Positions 15,112 through 22,858 of a DNA stretch of 45,452 bases are shown here, piece after piece. Every line of letters begins with the position of its first letter. The stretch's first letter is position 1. Source of the stretch: Nitrospirota bacterium (GTDB lineage Bacteria > Nitrospirota > Thermodesulfovibrionia > Thermodesulfovibrionales > UBA6898); contig SCQH01000083.1 in NCBI GenBank assembly GCA_004321925.1, positions 1 through 45,452 of the forward strand. Direction: 5' to 3'. The position numbers were made by a program, and so were the translations under genes. Below the pieces are notes generated by a model. The model did not search any database and was not told the origin of the DNA. It saw only the letters and a list, made by a program, of their open reading frames with translations.

Positions 15112-15147
15112 GCAGGCGACCGCCTGCTACGCGATTGCGCCTGTTCA
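15112..15147 (-). other. Candidate bacterial SECIS element with in-frame UGA
   Basis: The UGA (complement of 15145-15147) is followed after 17 nt by a perfect hairpin, GCAGGC-GGUC-GCCUGC (complement of 15127-15112). Its apical loop starts 24 nt after the UGA, inside the 16-37-nt window known for bacterial SECIS elements, and carries the GGU(C) loop that SelB recognises in Escherichia coli fdhF. It overlaps the next in-frame stop (TAG, complement of 15127-15129), so the element straddles the true 3' end. There is no T-run after the hairpin, so a terminator is a less good explanation. Confidence 0.65.
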
Positions 15148-16065
15148 GGTGGAGCCCTGACCGGCTGTGCAGCCGTAGCAGTGGCCGCCGGTCATGATCT
15201 CCCTGCCGGCAAGCCGGTCCCGGTCAAAATCCCGGATATGCTGCAGACCCAGGCCGAGCCCCTGGTTGAAGTCGCAGTCGTAGAGCGTCCCGTCCCAGCC
15301 CACACTGATGAGGTGCCTGCACATCAGGCCGGTCAGGGTCGAGGGATTGAAGGCCTGCTCCAGCAGATCGCAATATTGCTGCAGGGCGCCGGCCCTTTCG
15401 AGCTGTTTCCTGAACCTTCCGACCGGCATATTTGCAAAGACGAAGAGGCGGTCAAAGGTTATCCCCTGCCGCGCTGCAAGTTCGCGCCGGTAGTCTTCTT
15501 CCAGCCTTTTTTGTTCCGGAGGAAGGAACGGTCCGGAAGGGTTATAGACGAGGTTCAATTTTCTGCCGGCCTTGCCGTCCCCATAGCCCAGATGATTGAG
15601 CTGCCTGAGTGCCTCAACGCTTTTGTGGTAGGTCCCCTTGCCCCGCGCCGAGTCGACCCCGCTGTCGAGGTAGCAGGGCAGGGAGGCGGTTATCTCTGCA
15701 TCATGGTCTTGGTAAAATTGAGGCAGGTGCTCAAGGCCCGGTTCAAAGAAGACCGTGAGGTTCGAATGGACGACAACGTGGCAGCCGGTCTTCTTCGCCT
15801 CCTGCACGAGGTAACGGAAATGGGGATTCAGTTCAGGTGCCCCGCCGGTGATATCGAGCGTCATGATCTGCTCAGCCCTGAGCAGGGCGAGGACCTCGTC
15901 AACGGTGTCTTTCGTCATCACCTCGGTCCTGCCGGGTCCTGCACTGACATGGCAATGGCTGCAGGCCATATTGCAGAGATAGCCCAGGTTGACCTGAAGG
16001 CTCTGTACCCTGATCGGGGTGAGAGGCTGCTTCAACAGTTCTTCTATCCTCTGCTTAAATTCCAT
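15127..16065 (-). CDS. arsS: ArsS-family radical SAM protein, probable selenoprotein (TGA read as Sec)
   Basis: Radical SAM enzyme. The 4Fe-4S motif is C31-x3-C35-x2-C38 in GYLCNMACSHCHVSAGP, followed by TGGAPELNPHF (SAM-binding GGE-like region) and the DUF3641-type second half with LNLVYNPSGPFLPP and LMCRHLISVGWDGTLYDCDFNQ. Family members join dimethylated arsenic to the 5'-deoxyadenosyl group, making arsenosugar precursors. The frame reaches GGHCYGCTAGQGST and then TGA at complement 15145-15147, exactly where relatives have Cys or Sec. Reading through adds U-T-G-A-I-A and stops at TAG (complement 15127-15129), restoring the family C-terminus; a SECIS-like hairpin follows. I therefore annotate 312 residues with Sec307. 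If the TGA is a true stop, the product is 306 residues and ends at 15145. A TATAAT box at complement 16090-16095 may be its -10. Confidence 0.82.
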
Positions 16066-16132: not shown

Positions 16133-16161
16133 TTGTGAAATGGGGGGTTGCAGTATACAAT
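16133..16161 (+). promoter_or_regulatory. Putative sigma70-type promoter of the gnd-zwf-pgl operon
   Basis: TTGTGA (16133-16138), a 17-nt spacer and TACAAT (16156-16161) lie about 30 nt before the gnd start codon, in the divergent spacer with the ArsS-like gene. Confidence 0.5.
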
Positions 16162-16190
16162 ATGCTTATATCGGACAGGGAGGAGAGCAT

Positions 16191-17099
16191 ATGAAGATCG
16201 GCATGGTCGGGCTTGGGAAGATGGGGATGAATATGGCGCGGCGCCTGCTTCTGAAAGGGCAGAAGGTGGTGGCCTTCAACCGGTCCCCTGAAAAGGTGGC
16301 CGAGATCATGAAAGAGGGGGCAGAAGGCGCCCATACCCTTGGAGAACTGGTCGCTAAGCTTGACCGGCCGAGGGTGATATGGCTCATGCTCCCTGCGGGC
16401 AGACCGGTGGACGATCTGCTGGAAGCGCTCATCCCATTGCTCGCAAAGGGAGATACGATCGTCGAGGGCGGCAACAGTTTCTATAAGGACGATATCAGGC
16501 GGGAGGGTCTGCTCCGCACAGCAGGCATGCAGTGGCTCGATGCCGGGGTGAGCGGCGGGGTCTGGGGGCTCAAGAACGGCTATTGCCTTATGCTCGGAGG
16601 CGAGCGGCAGGTCTATGATGCCCTGCTCCCGCTCTTTGAGGCTCTTGCCCCGCAGGACGGATATCTCTATTGCGGTCCGGCCGGCGCAGGCCACTTTGTC
16701 AAGATGATTCATAACGGCATTGAATACGGCATGATGTCCGCCTATGGCGAGGGTTTCGAGATCCTGAACGCCTCCCCGTACGGAAGCACGGTCGATCCTG
16801 CGGCGGTCGCCCATCTCTGGAACCAGGGGAGCGTGGTGCGGTCATGGCTGCTCGAACTGGCCGAAGAGGCATTTAAAAAAGACGGGAGGCTTGAGACGGT
16901 CAGGGGCTTTATTGAAGATTCGGGCGAGGGGAGATGGACCGTCCAGCAGGCCATCGATTCTGCTGTCCCTGCCCCGGTCATCACGGCCGCCCTGTATCAG
17001 CGGTTCCGGTCGAGGCAGGACGATCCATTTGCTGACCGTCTCCTTGCGGCTCTCAGGAACGAGTTCGGAGGCCACGCTGTTCAGAAGAAGGGGGACTGA
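16191..17099 (+). CDS. gnd: 6-phosphogluconate dehydrogenase (decarboxylating), short form
   Basis: Predicted 302-residue cytosolic enzyme converting 6-phosphogluconate to ribulose 5-phosphate and CO2. The N-terminal Rossmann motif is GMVGLGKMGMNMARRL, with NRSP after beta2. The substrate-binding signature DAGVSGGVWGLKNGYCLMLGG and the catalytic region GPAGAGHFVKMIHNGIEYGMM (K, H, N) are intact. At ~300 residues it is the short YqeC/GndA-like form, not the 470-residue Escherichia coli type; such enzymes often use NAD+. The start ATG 16191 follows GGGAGGAGA; upstream in-frame residues are not conserved. First gene of the operon gnd-zwf-pgl-transferase, 2 nt before zwf. Confidence 0.95.
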   Translation: MKIGMVGLGKMGMNMARRLLLKGQKVVAFNRSPEKVAEIMKEGAEGAHTLGELVAKLDRPRVIWLMLPAGRPVDDLLEALIPLLAKGDTIVEGGNSFYKDDIRREGLLRTAGMQWLDAGVSGGVWGLKNGYCLMLGGERQVYDALLPLFEALAPQDGYLYCGPAGAGHFVKMIHNGIEYGMMSAYGEGFEILNASPYGSTVDPAAVAHLWNQGSVVRSWLLELAEEAFKKDGRLETVRGFIEDSGEGRWTVQQAIDSAVPAPVITAALYQRFRSRQDDPFADRLLAALRNEFGGHAVQKKGD

Positions 17100-17101
17100 C
17101 C

Positions 17102-18661
17102 ATGGTTGAGGGACCTTTTTTCGACCTTACAGGGAATGTCTTCGGCAGGGTGATCTCCGGGGCCGATCCGCACTGCAGCATTGATATTCCCTCCCCCTGC
17201 TCAGTGATCATATTCGGCGCCTCCGGCGACCTCACCCGGAGGAAGATAATCCCCTCGCTCTACCGGCTCCTTGCCATCGGCCTGCTTCCCGATCCTTTCT
17301 TTGTCATAGGCGCTGCCCGCACCCCGACCAGCGACGCTGACTTCAGGGCATCGATGAAGAAGGCTGTGCAGGAGGCCCTCCCCAAGGACTTTTCCGAAAG
17401 CTCATGGGAGACTTTTTCTGAAATGCTGTATTTCGTGCAGATCGACTATGACGGCAGTGAGAGCTACGTCGGACTGCGGGATAAGATACAGGACCTCGAG
17501 GCGAAGCATGCCACCGGCGGCAACAGGATATACTATCTGGCCACACCTCCGGCAGTCTATGAGCCGGTCATCGAAAACCTCGGGCTTGCCGGGCTTTCCC
17601 AGGAGGAGGGCGCATACCGGCATATCGTTGTCGAAAAACCGATCGGGAGCGATCTGGAGTCGGCGAGACATCTCAACCAGACCCTTGCCGCATCGTTTGG
17701 CGAGCGTCAGATATACCGGATGGACCATTATCTCGCTAAGGAGACGGTCCAGAACATCCTGATGTTTCGGTTTGCGAATTCGCTCTTCGAGCCTGTCTGG
17801 AACAAGATGTATATCGACCATGTCGAGATCACAGCGTCAGAGACGCTGGGCGTCGAGCACCGGGCAGGCTATTACGAGCAGGCCGGGGTGATACGGGACA
17901 TGTTCCAGAACCATATCTTCCAGCTCCTTGCACTGACCGCAATGGAGCCGCCTGTCCTCTTCGATGCCGAACGGGTGCGGGATGAAAAGGTAAAGGTCCT
18001 GAGGGCCATCCGTCCGTTCGACCTTGAGGATCTCGGCAGCCAGGTCGTTACCGGGCAGTATGACAGCGGGTCTGTCAGTGGCAGCGATGTCCCTGCATAC
18101 CGGGATGAACCCGGCGTCTCTCCCGGATCAACAACCCCCACATATGCGGCGATGAAGGTCCATATCGACAACTGGAGATGGAGCGGCGTCCCGTTCTATC
18201 TCCGCTCGGGCAAGAGGCTTGCGGCCCGGAAGGCAGAGATCGCGATCCATTTCAGGCCGGTCCCGCACCTGATGTTCTCTCAGGCCATGGCAGACGGCAT
18301 CGCCCCCAACGTGCTGATCCTCAGGGTCCAGCCTGATGAGGGGATAGGCCTGCATTTCCAGGCCAAGAACCCCGGCTCACGGGTATGCCTCAATACCGTC
18401 CTGATGAACTTCTCCTACCAAAATGCCTTTGTGCTGGACGGGTACGAGCGGGTGCTCCTGGACTGTATGCAGGCTGACCAGATGCTCTTTGTCCGGGCAG
18501 ACGGCGTGGAGCAGGCCTGGGCCGTGCTGACGCCGGTGATCGAGCGGCTGACCGCCCTGGCAAGACCCGGAGATCTTCCGAACTACCCGGCCGGCTCTTC
18601 AGGCCCTGCAGGGGCAGACGATCTGCTCAAGAGGGACGGCAGGCAATGGAGAGCACTCTGA
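17102..18661 (+). CDS. zwf: Glucose-6-phosphate 1-dehydrogenase
   Basis: Predicted 519-residue enzyme oxidising glucose 6-phosphate to 6-phosphogluconolactone. The coenzyme site is VIFGASGDLTRRKIIPSLYR (~38-57), EKPIGSD comes next, and the active-site signature RMDHYLAKETVQN (~203-215) carries the catalytic His and Lys. The first ~35 residues before the Rossmann fold are longer than usual and not recognised. Most G6PDs prefer NADP+; the cofactor here cannot be read. It starts 2 nt after gnd and overlaps pgl by 16 nt, so the three are cotranscribed and coupled. Confidence 0.96.
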   Translation: MVEGPFFDLTGNVFGRVISGADPHCSIDIPSPCSVIIFGASGDLTRRKIIPSLYRLLAIGLLPDPFFVIGAARTPTSDADFRASMKKAVQEALPKDFSESSWETFSEMLYFVQIDYDGSESYVGLRDKIQDLEAKHATGGNRIYYLATPPAVYEPVIENLGLAGLSQEEGAYRHIVVEKPIGSDLESARHLNQTLAASFGERQIYRMDHYLAKETVQNILMFRFANSLFEPVWNKMYIDHVEITASETLGVEHRAGYYEQAGVIRDMFQNHIFQLLALTAMEPPVLFDAERVRDEKVKVLRAIRPFDLEDLGSQVVTGQYDSGSVSGSDVPAYRDEPGVSPGSTTPTYAAMKVHIDNWRWSGVPFYLRSGKRLAARKAEIAIHFRPVPHLMFSQAMADGIAPNVLILRVQPDEGIGLHFQAKNPGSRVCLNTVLMNFSYQNAFVLDGYERVLLDCMQADQMLFVRADGVEQAWAVLTPVIERLTALARPGDLPNYPAGSSGPAGADDLLKRDGRQWRAL

Positions 18662-19389
18662 GGGAGGAGGTCCGGATATTCCCCGACCCTGAAGGACTGG
18701 CCCGGGCAGCCGCCGCTATCTTTGCAGGGTCTGCTGAGCGTGCCATTGCCGGGAAGGGCAGGTTTTCTGTCGCCCTTTCAGGTGGTTCGACCCCTCTCGG
18801 ACTCTTTCGCATCCTCGGCTCGGCCTATGGCGATACGCTCAGATGGGAGCAGGTGCATCTTTTCTGGGCGGATGAGCGCTCAGTTCCGCCTGACCATGAA
18901 GAGAGCAACTTCAGGCATGCTCATGAAGAGCTGCTCAGCAAGGTCCTCATTCCTGCCTCCAACATCCACAGGATCAGGGGTGAACTCCCCCCTTTGGAAG
19001 CAGCAGCCGGATATGCAAGGGAGATGGTCAGCTATTTTGGCACTGCCGGCCCCCCGGCATTCGATTGTATCCTCCTTGGCCTCGGACAGGACGGCCATAC
19101 TGCCTCTCTCTTCCCCGGGTCTGATGGCCTGAAAGATACAGGACATTATGCGCTGCCGTCATATTCCGGGGCCGCCGGAAACTGGAGGGTGACCCTTACC
19201 CTTGCTGTTTTGAACAATGCCGCGGAGATCCTTTTTCTTGTCTCCGGCGCAGCTAAGGCAGGGATAGTCAGGGAGGTCCTTCAAAAAGGCCAAAGAGACT
19301 TGTACCCTGCCGGAAGCATAAGACCTTCTCGCGGCAGCATCACCTGGCTTCTCGATAGAGAGGCGGCCTCCGGGCTTGGGGCCTGCTAG
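18646..19389 (+). CDS. pgl: 6-phosphogluconolactonase (DevB type)
   Basis: Predicted 247-residue enzyme hydrolysing 6-phosphogluconolactone, the middle step between zwf and gnd. Family signatures are VALSGGSTPLGLFRIL, HLFWADERSVPPDHEESNFR and DCILLGLGQDGHTASLFPGS, all intact. ATG 18646 lies inside the end of zwf (16-nt overlap), and the preceding GGACGGCAGG can serve as a ribosome site. Confidence 0.95.
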   Translation: MESTLREEVRIFPDPEGLARAAAAIFAGSAERAIAGKGRFSVALSGGSTPLGLFRILGSAYGDTLRWEQVHLFWADERSVPPDHEESNFRHAHEELLSKVLIPASNIHRIRGELPPLEAAAGYAREMVSYFGTAGPPAFDCILLGLGQDGHTASLFPGSDGLKDTGHYALPSYSGAAGNWRVTLTLAVLNNAAEILFLVSGAAKAGIVREVLQKGQRDLYPAGSIRPSRGSITWLLDREAASGLGAC

Positions 19390-19390
19390 G

Positions 19391-19996
19391 GTGAACCGGA
19401 ACCTCTACGGTCTTATGATCAAGTACCCTGAACCGGGCAGGGTCAAGACCCGCCTTGCCAGGGTTATCGGTCCGGAGCAGGCCGCCCTGATCAGCAGGCA
19501 GACGGCTGAAACGGTCGTGCGACAGACCTCTCCGGATGACAGGGCAGATATCCGGTATGACCGGTATATTTTTTATGACCCGCCTGATCGGGGACAGGAC
19601 TTCGTCTCATGGCTCCCTGATGAGGCATTCATCCTGCAAAGCGGCAGGGATGTGGGTGAAAGGATGGATGCGGCGGTCCGGCATCTTATCGGGCTTGGCG
19701 CTGCCAGGGCGGTCATCACCGGGGCTGACATACCCGGTCTCTCCCGGGAGATCCTCGTACAGGCCTTTGAACTGCTCGACCATGCAGACGTCGTGCTCGG
19801 ACCTGCCCTGGACGGAGGCTATTACCTTATCGGCATGAAGAAGCCTATGCCGGAACTCTTTCATGATATCCCCTGGAGCAGCCCGGAAGTTCTTTCGGAG
19901 ACGCTCAAGGTCCTGAGCCGTTTAAATAGGTCCTACAGTCTTCTCCCTGCCCTTTCAGACCTCGATACGATCGAGGACCTGCATCGTCAGGGCTGA
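19391..19996 (+). CDS. CofC-like nucleotidyl/glycosyltransferase (DUF2064, rSAM/selenodomain-associated type 1)
   Basis: Predicted 201-residue GT-A fold transferase. The N-terminal IKYPEPGRVKTRLARVIGPE resembles the nucleotide-binding loop of MobA/CofC/GT2-like enzymes, GADIPGLS carries the metal-binding Asp region, and GPALDGGYYLIGMKKP with the following DIPWSSPEVL is the DUF2064 signature. Family databases name this group after its frequent neighbourhood with the rSAM/selenodomain (ArsS) proteins and it is also called an arsenosugar-biosynthesis glycosyltransferase; the actual substrate is not established here. GTG 19391 is preferred because it directly follows the pgl stop; TTG 19376 is possible. 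Its 3' end overlaps the convergent peroxidase gene by 10 nt. Confidence 0.82.
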   Translation: MNRNLYGLMIKYPEPGRVKTRLARVIGPEQAALISRQTAETVVRQTSPDDRADIRYDRYIFYDPPDRGQDFVSWLPDEAFILQSGRDVGERMDAAVRHLIGLGAARAVITGADIPGLSREILVQAFELLDHADVVLGPALDGGYYLIGMKKPMPELFHDIPWSSPEVLSETLKVLSRLNRSYSLLPALSDLDTIEDLHRQG

Positions 19997-21195
19997 CTCA
20001 GGGGGCTGCTGAGCGTCCTGAGAAAGGCCTCCAGTTTCAGAAGGTCCTCATCTTCCAGGTCCGGGTGATCGGTCTCCCTGCTTGCAGACATACGGTAAAA
20101 TCGAAGGACATCCCTCAGGCTCTTCAATTGGCCCGCATGCATATAAGGTGGCCGTTCAGCAGTATTTCTCAGTGTAGGGGTCTTGAACGTCCCTTCATAT
20201 TTCTTCAGGTCCCTGTCGATAAAACGGAGTTCGAGGCACTGCTCGGGTTTTGCGTCGCTGTATCTGCCGAGGCAGTTGAACTCGTCCGCAAGCACTTTAG
20301 GTATCCCCTCTGCCCGTCCCCTGTCAGGGCTGTCCAGACCCACATGATGGAAGCTGCTGTTCGTAAAGAGCGGACCGTTATGGCAGTTTATGCATTTTGC
20401 CCTGCCGATAAAAAGCCTGAGCCCCTCCACAGCATCCCGGCCCATGATCTTCGCTGCTGTTCCGGGGTCGTTTGCGGCCACTGCCTCAACATACTTGTCA
20501 AAGGCCGAGGGCTGCGGCAGTATCCGGCTCACATAGGCAGCCAGCGCCTTGCCGATGTTGGCATAGATCCTGTTCACCGAGTCCCGGTCAGCAGGTTTCA
20601 TGCTGTTCCAGAGCCTGGCTGCGGCAGGATTCCCGGTGCCGGGGCTGGCCTTCGGAGGGCAGCTTGCATGGTCTATCTTCGGTAAACTGCCGAAGATAGC
20701 TTCGTATTCCGTCCGGTATTTATCAAGGATGAGGTGCGCGCACATGGAGCGGGTAAAGCCATGCTCCACCGAGCTTTCTATCGGCCCGATGGCCTGGGAC
20801 CAGAGGCTGTCCTTCCTGCCGTCCCAGAAGAACCAGGCATTATAGGCAGAGCCGATAAGTGGCATGGTCCTTCTCGTTGTCCTGCCCATGCCTTTTGCCA
20901 GGGCCAGTCTGTCGGTAAAACTGATCGCCGGGATATGGCAGGTCGCGCAGGAGACCTTTTTGTTTGCGCTGAACCGCTTATCAAAAAAAAGCTTCTTCCC
21001 GAACTCCGCTGCCTTCGGGTCAGCGGCATACGCATTTGACGGGTCCTTAGGCAGGGGAGGCAGCGAAGCAAGAGAAAGGGAGCGAATGGTCGTGAGCTCC
21101 TCTTTGCTCCAGGCCTGCAGCGGGTCAGTTTCAGCATAAACCAGGCCCGCCATGAACAGTATTGCCGGTAGTATCGTCAGGATCTTTTTAAGCAT
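19987..21195 (-). CDS. Periplasmic di-haem cytochrome c peroxidase (MauG/CcpA family)
   Basis: Predicted 402-residue exported haemoprotein. A signal peptide spans 1-21 ([13 protein letters not shown]). There are two c-type haem sites: CATCH at C83/C86/H87 and CINCH at C268/C271/H272. The segments [32 protein letters not shown] and [24 protein letters not shown] are characteristic of the family. Members reduce hydrogen peroxide with electrons from small cytochromes or, in MauG, oxidise a protein tryptophan; the conserved MHAG/MHDG motif favours a peroxidase. The start overlaps the end of pgi by 8 nt, so both are in one operon. Confidence 0.93.
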
Positions 21196-22858
21196 CTGAA
21201 GTCTCCTTTGTTCTCATCTCTATGCATGCCCTGATCAGGCCGCTGGTCGAAGGATCATGCTGCGACAGCTCTTTTTTGCCGGACAGTTCAGTCAGTATCT
21301 TTTTTGCAAGCTGTTTGCCGAGCTCGACCCCCCACTGGTCAAAACTGAATATGTTCCAGATCACGCCCTGAACGAAGATCTTATGTTCATACAGTGCGAT
21401 GAGACTGCCGAGCGTCCTGGGGGTCAGTTTTGTAAGGAGGATGGAGTTCGTCGGCCTGTTCCCGCTGAAGACCCGGTAAGGCGTCTGCCTGGCTATCTCT
21501 ATGTCGTCCTTGCCTGCCGCCTTCAGCTCGGCCACAACCTCTTCTTTCGTCTTCCCGGACATGAGGGCCTCTGTCTGGGCGAAGAAATTCGACAGGAGGA
21601 TCAGGTGGTGGTCGCCGACAGGGTTATGGCTTATGGCAGGCGCAATGAAATCACAGGGGACCAGCTTTGTCCCCTGGTGGAGCAGCTGGTAAAAGGCATG
21701 CTGGCCGTTCGTGCCGGGCTCCCCCCAGATGACCGGGCCGGTCTGGTACGATACAGCCTCTCCGCTGCGGTCGACAGACTTCCCGTTGCTCTCCATATCT
21801 CCCTGCTGGAAATAGGCCGGGAACCGGTGCATATACTGGTCATAGGGGAGGATGGCATGCGTCTCCGAGCCGAAAAAGTTGTTATACCATATCCCGATGA
21901 GCCCGAGGATGAGCGGGAGGTTCTTCTGAGGCGGCGCCTCGCGGAAATGGTTGTCCATGGCATGGGCGCCTTCAAGCAATGCCCTGAAATTATCAAAGCC
22001 GATGGTGCAGGCGATCGAAAGCCCGATGGCAGACCAGAGGGAATATCTGCCTCCGACCCAGTCCCAGAAGACGAACATGTTCTCGGGAGCAATGCCGAAC
22101 TTTTCGACCTCAGGGGCATTCGTCGAGAGGGCCACGAAATGCTTCCTGATATGGGTCTCGTCCCCGGCGGCCTTGAGGAACCACTGCCGGGCAGTATGGG
22201 CATTCGTCATCGTCTCCTGGGTCGTAAAGGTCTTCGAGGCGATCATAAAGAGCGTTGTCTCAGGGGAGACCTTCTTCAGGGTCTCGACGATATGTGTCCC
22301 GTCGATGTTCGAGACAAAGTGGGAGGTGATCCCGGGGGCATGATAAGGCCTGAGCGCCTCGGTCACCATCACCGGGCCAAGGTCAGAGCCGCCGATGCCG
22401 ATATTGACGATGTCGGTGATGGTCTTGCCTGTATAGCCTTTCCACTGGCCCGAGATGACCCTGCCGGAAAAGGCCTCCATCTGTTTCAGCACTGCATTGA
22501 TCTCCGGCATAAGGTCCTTGCCTTCAAGCAGCACCGGCGTATTCGACCGGTTCCTGAGCGCTGCATGCAGCACTGCACGGTCCTCGGTCTCGTTGATCCG
22601 GTCGCCGCTGAACATCTGCTCTATCGCACGGCTGACCCCTGCCTCTACGGCCAGTTCGAACAGAAGCTGCATTGTTTCATCGGTGAGGATATTCTTTGAA
22701 TAATCCAAAAGCATATCTTCGAAGCGGACCGAAAAGTTCGTGAACCGGTCAGGATCATCGGAGAAGAGCTGGTTCATCCTGGTGTCCTTCATCTCCTCAT
22801 AATGTCCCCGGAGCTTTTCCCAGGCGGCTGTATGCACGGGATTCTGATGTGGCAGCAT
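21188..22858 (-). CDS. pgi: Glucose-6-phosphate isomerase
   Basis: Predicted 556-residue glycolytic enzyme interconverting glucose 6-phosphate and fructose 6-phosphate. The signatures [65 protein letters not shown] and the [18 protein letters not shown] active-site region are intact, as in the long (~550-residue) proteobacterial form. It lies downstream of the flavoprotein gene (99-nt gap) on the same strand. Product and position connect it with the gnd-zwf-pgl operon facing it, as both compete for glucose 6-phosphate. Confidence 0.96.

Follow-up and report, generated by a model that had tools for sequence, protein, structure and literature searches.

A Nitrospirota ArsS radical SAM enzyme with a predicted C-terminal selenocysteine

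A gene on the minus strand of a 45,452-nucleotide stretch of Nitrospirota DNA (hereafter the window, meaning the whole stretch analysed) almost certainly encodes a selenocysteine-containing form of the radical SAM enzyme ArsS, in which an in-frame TGA would be decoded as selenocysteine (Sec) and translation would continue for five codons to a UAG stop. We infer Sec insertion, the enzymatic activity and the role of Sec from the sequence, its conservation, a downstream hairpin and the Sec machinery of the genome.

The arsS gene and its product

With TGA taken as a stop, the minus-strand frame (16065-15145) comprises 306 residues and ends GGHCYGCTAGQGST-TGA. Past the TGA (15147-15145, minus strand) the frame continues as U-T-G-A-I-A, the five codons after Sec (T-G-A-I-A) occupying positions 15130-15144 and a TAG stop following at 15129-15127. 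The coding sequence including the TGA (15127-16065, minus strand) thereby has 312 residues, with the predicted Sec at position 307 as the last member of a C-x2-C-x7-U motif. The initial annotation had proposed an ArsS-like frame that is cut short by naive gene calling, with this motif spacing and a family-like C-terminus after the TGA, and our searches bear out each point. The truncated frame scored 412.6 bits (curated cut-off 300) against TIGR04167, which NCBI names 'arsenosugar biosynthesis radical SAM (seleno)protein ArsS'. A stop-reading search of the whole genome gave 417.4 bits for arsS over profile positions 5-303 of 303, with one TGA inside the match; with read-through the match no longer ended at position 298 of the profile but ran to its last, 303, completing it. 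Standard gene calling costs the protein six residues.

The ArsS of the window contains a Radical_SAM domain (PF04055) and a C-terminal DUF3641 domain (PF12345). Its radical SAM motif, CNMACSHC (CxxxCxxC; 15952-15975, minus strand), is also present in the extracted relatives, and its cysteines are expected to be the ligands of the SAM-cleaving 4Fe-4S cluster. The C-terminal family motif CxxCTAGxGSS[C/U]xG appears in the window as HCYGCTAGQGST-U-TG, where HCYGCTAGQGST are the C-terminal letters of the truncated frame. TIGR04167 (rSAM_SeCys / ArsS; for example, AAR34688.1) is the same family with the same single C-terminal Sec, and the ArsS of the window was found to differ from it only in organism and exact sequence. 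A sequence search of the PDB returned no close ArsS homologue, only distant radical SAM enzymes, and a scan of a collection of genome contigs with the window protein returned a single weak relative.

The C-terminal residue and the downstream hairpin in relatives

We sampled 296 genomes of the window's phylum, 160 of which had an ArsS match, and read the C-terminus in 69 ArsS genes, the window's included. With a search pattern that admitted only Cys or TGA at the column of interest and also required Gly at the second codon after it, 48 genes had Cys and 21 an in-frame TGA (one further locus, L088, lay outside the pattern). The homologues do not all end at GST without Cys or Sec at this column, the outcome that the initial annotation had named as a refutation. 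The 20 TGA genes besides the window's come from 19 other genomes, and in the family to which the window belongs all nine genomes with an ArsS match, its own among them, show one TGA inside the gene. One genome of that family (G113) has two divergent Sec-form arsS genes (L066 and L074).

The codons after the TGA are conserved in the TGA and Cys forms. Codon 2, the Gly required by the pattern, uses all four third bases among the 21 TGA forms and is likewise Gly in 48/48 Cys forms; codon 3 encodes Ala, Ser or Thr, and the Cys forms follow the same pattern at both codons. A stop stands at codon 6 in 18 of the 21 TGA forms, and 15 of the 21 have TAG there. Judged from the free third bases and from codons 3 to 6, which lie outside the search pattern, this is conservation of the coding type. 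The Cys forms share the domain layout of the window's ArsS but have a Cys codon in place of TGA, giving a C-x2-C-x7-C site, and lack a conserved hairpin there. On a tree built without the C-terminal columns the distribution of Sec and Cys forms needs six changes, of which the supported branches force only one.

In one TGA form (L069, genome G225) the true stop is apparently a second TGA, about 18 nt or six codons past the Sec TGA, with the same hairpin adjoining; two TGA codons in one gene, one for Sec and one for termination, make this a natural test of the influence of position. A TGA may likewise close L073.

Downstream of the window's TGA lies a hairpin, GCAGGC-GGUC-GCCUGC, with a 6-bp stem (15112-15127, minus strand; +18 to +33 after the TGA). 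Its apical loop, GGUC (15118-15121, minus strand; +24 to +27), is the expected contact for SelB and has a G that is conserved in the alignment. The initial annotation had placed a hairpin exactly here and likened it to a bacterial SECIS. Published bSECIS constraints (PMC13188914) call for a loop of 3-9 nt with G in its first two places, a stem of 4-16 bp, a distance of 16-37 nt from UGA and a minimum free energy of at most -7.5 kcal/mol; the window element, with its GGUC loop, 6-bp stem, 23 nt from UGA to loop and -10.2 kcal/mol, falls within all of these. It thus shares loop, stem, spacing and energy with the consensus model (bSECISearch type). The consensus element, however, typically lies inside the coding region (PMC13188914), whereas that of the window, its stem opening on the final base (G) of TAG, sits downstream of the coding sequence as part of the 3' untranslated region.

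The hairpin is found at the same place, with the loop at about +24, in all 21 TGA forms. RNAalifold recovered the same six pairs with 96% of cells paired, a share that fell to 26-52% when the pairing partner was displaced by one, two or three columns. Since changes on both sides were seen at only one of the six stem pairs, the support is conservation more than covariation. Under a strict bSECIS-like test 18/21 TGA forms were positive versus 4/48 Cys forms (Fisher p 4e-10, though this test and the one below overstate independence, the relatives being akin to one another); the four positive Cys forms were mutually unlike. A covariance model (R1) scored the window element, a member of its training set, at 58.2 bits and the rest of its own genome at 16.7 bits at most. 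As an isolated 50-nt RNA the region has an alternative fold that is 1.3 kcal/mol more stable (-18.1 versus -16.8). When the 12 nt directly following the UGA, which would sit inside a ribosome paused at that codon, were removed, the SECIS hairpin became the best fold.

Dinucleotide shuffles of the tail produced a bSECIS-like hairpin in 5% of cases (1.6% with a stem of at least 6 bp and a GG/GU loop). Such a hairpin by itself is weak evidence; it is the homologues and the Sec machinery that carry the argument. The shuffles, together with the reading under translation table 11, favour an ordinary stop, in which the protein would end GQGST and the codons that follow would be untranslated. This is nevertheless highly improbable, given the Gly codon with free third bases in every TGA form, the recurrent stop at codon 6, Cys at the column in all 48 relatives without TGA, the conserved hairpin and a genome equipped to make and insert Sec.

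Selenocysteine machinery and arsenosugar genes

The search for selA, selB, selC and selD suggested by the initial annotation found all four in the genome, including selB and selC, on which that reading had been made to depend. selA and selB lie together on one contig (C109), tRNA-Sec (selC, anticodon TCA) on C75 and selD on C74 (L101:2349-3410, G000). selD carries a TGA of its own, in SLSSCAGU-AAKFSP, and is a second selenoprotein gene of the genome. In a set of 69 genomes, 18/20 with a TGA form had a selA match versus only 16/49 sampled with a Cys form (p 1e-5). Both exceptions (G215 and G084) have a tRNA-Sec above the gathering score; selB was not found over the cut-off in either. The G084 assembly is 74% complete. 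In G215, given as 96% complete, neither selA nor selB was found, and the selAB segment is likely missing from the assembly.

Decoding of the TGA as Sec could also have decayed, the gene descending from a Sec form whose product is now mostly truncated. Efficiency cannot be read from sequence, and the competing fold of the window RNA is slightly more stable; we nonetheless give this scarcely any credence, as neither stem nor loop is damaged and the hairpin is strong (-10.2 kcal/mol), the Sec pathway is complete and the codons after the TGA match the family. That the TGA is a misread TGC or TGT is extremely improbable: although a single base parts TGA from a Cys codon and the draft genome is in 120 contigs, the same TGA, always with the hairpin, in the 20 other genes already contradicts it, and the conserved hairpin is missing from Cys genes.

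The window also encodes a TIGR04282 arsenosugar biosynthesis glycosyltransferase (19376-19996, plus strand; 186.6 bits, cut-off 134), which belongs to a usual kind of genomic partner of arsS; this is the selenodomain-associated transferase that had been noted near 19391. The pathway partner TIGR04283 is in the same genome, on contig C55. No ArsM was found in this genome with one model, NF008823, at E 1e-20. The missing match is weak evidence, because the model also has no match in Synechococcus elongatus, an ArsS-bearing genome, and because an ArsM-like gene beside arsS in G113 does not reach its cut-off. That gene, for a methyltransferase near a Sec-form arsS (L114:2975-4042), reaches the cut-off of none of the ArsM models (195 bits versus 263 for the best).

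Judged by position, arsS in the window has genes of the pentose phosphate pathway in its vicinity (gnd-like, zwf, pgl and pgi; 16140-19389 and 21188-22858); by the same measure its neighbours include gnd-like, zwf and rpe-like genes in G032 and pgi in G150 (L117:8578-11765; L118:11046-12704). A TIGR04169 peroxidase-like gene (perox_w_seleSAM) is close to arsS in two relatives (L114:1871-2203, L117:8099-8434), and similar short frames, as judged by their first residues, are near arsS in L116 and L118.

Proposed decoding and role of selenocysteine

We propose that SelA and SelD would make Sec-tRNA-Sec and that SelB would deliver it to the UGA while bound to the hairpin whose GGUC loop lies some 24 nt further on. 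Five more codons would then be translated before termination at UAG, yielding a radical SAM enzyme whose C-terminus bears the C-x2-C-x7-U site. For other ArsS proteins it is established that the 5'-deoxyadenosyl group of SAM is joined to a methylated arsenical en route to arsenosugars. That arsenic is adenosylated by ArsS in this pathway goes back to Cheng et al. 2021, as cited in PMC12159101. Sec probably has the role played by the invariant Cys elsewhere, and it may serve as a soft ligand or a thiol/selenol that would engage either arsenic or an Fe-S cluster close to the active site. We regard it as rather unlikely that Sec is catalytically distinct from Cys, for example as a selenolate that would capture trivalent arsenic and present it to the adenosyl radical.

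A literature search found nothing on an ArsS with selenocysteine or on a 'selenodomain'; TIGR04167 is named in PMC13188914 and PMC9312934, whose selenoprotein tables list it as a predicted selenoprotein, in keeping with the initial annotation's statement that Sec forms exist among ArsS relatives. The discovery is modest, because the ArsS family was already listed as Sec-containing. It settles a question of annotation, in that the true protein would be six residues longer and its last conserved residue would be Sec. It also supplies, within one phylum, Sec- and Cys-containing versions of a single radical SAM enzyme, a set that allows the role of the C-terminal residue in C-As bond formation to be tested; if Sec were catalytically distinct, the two forms would differ in rate or substrate.
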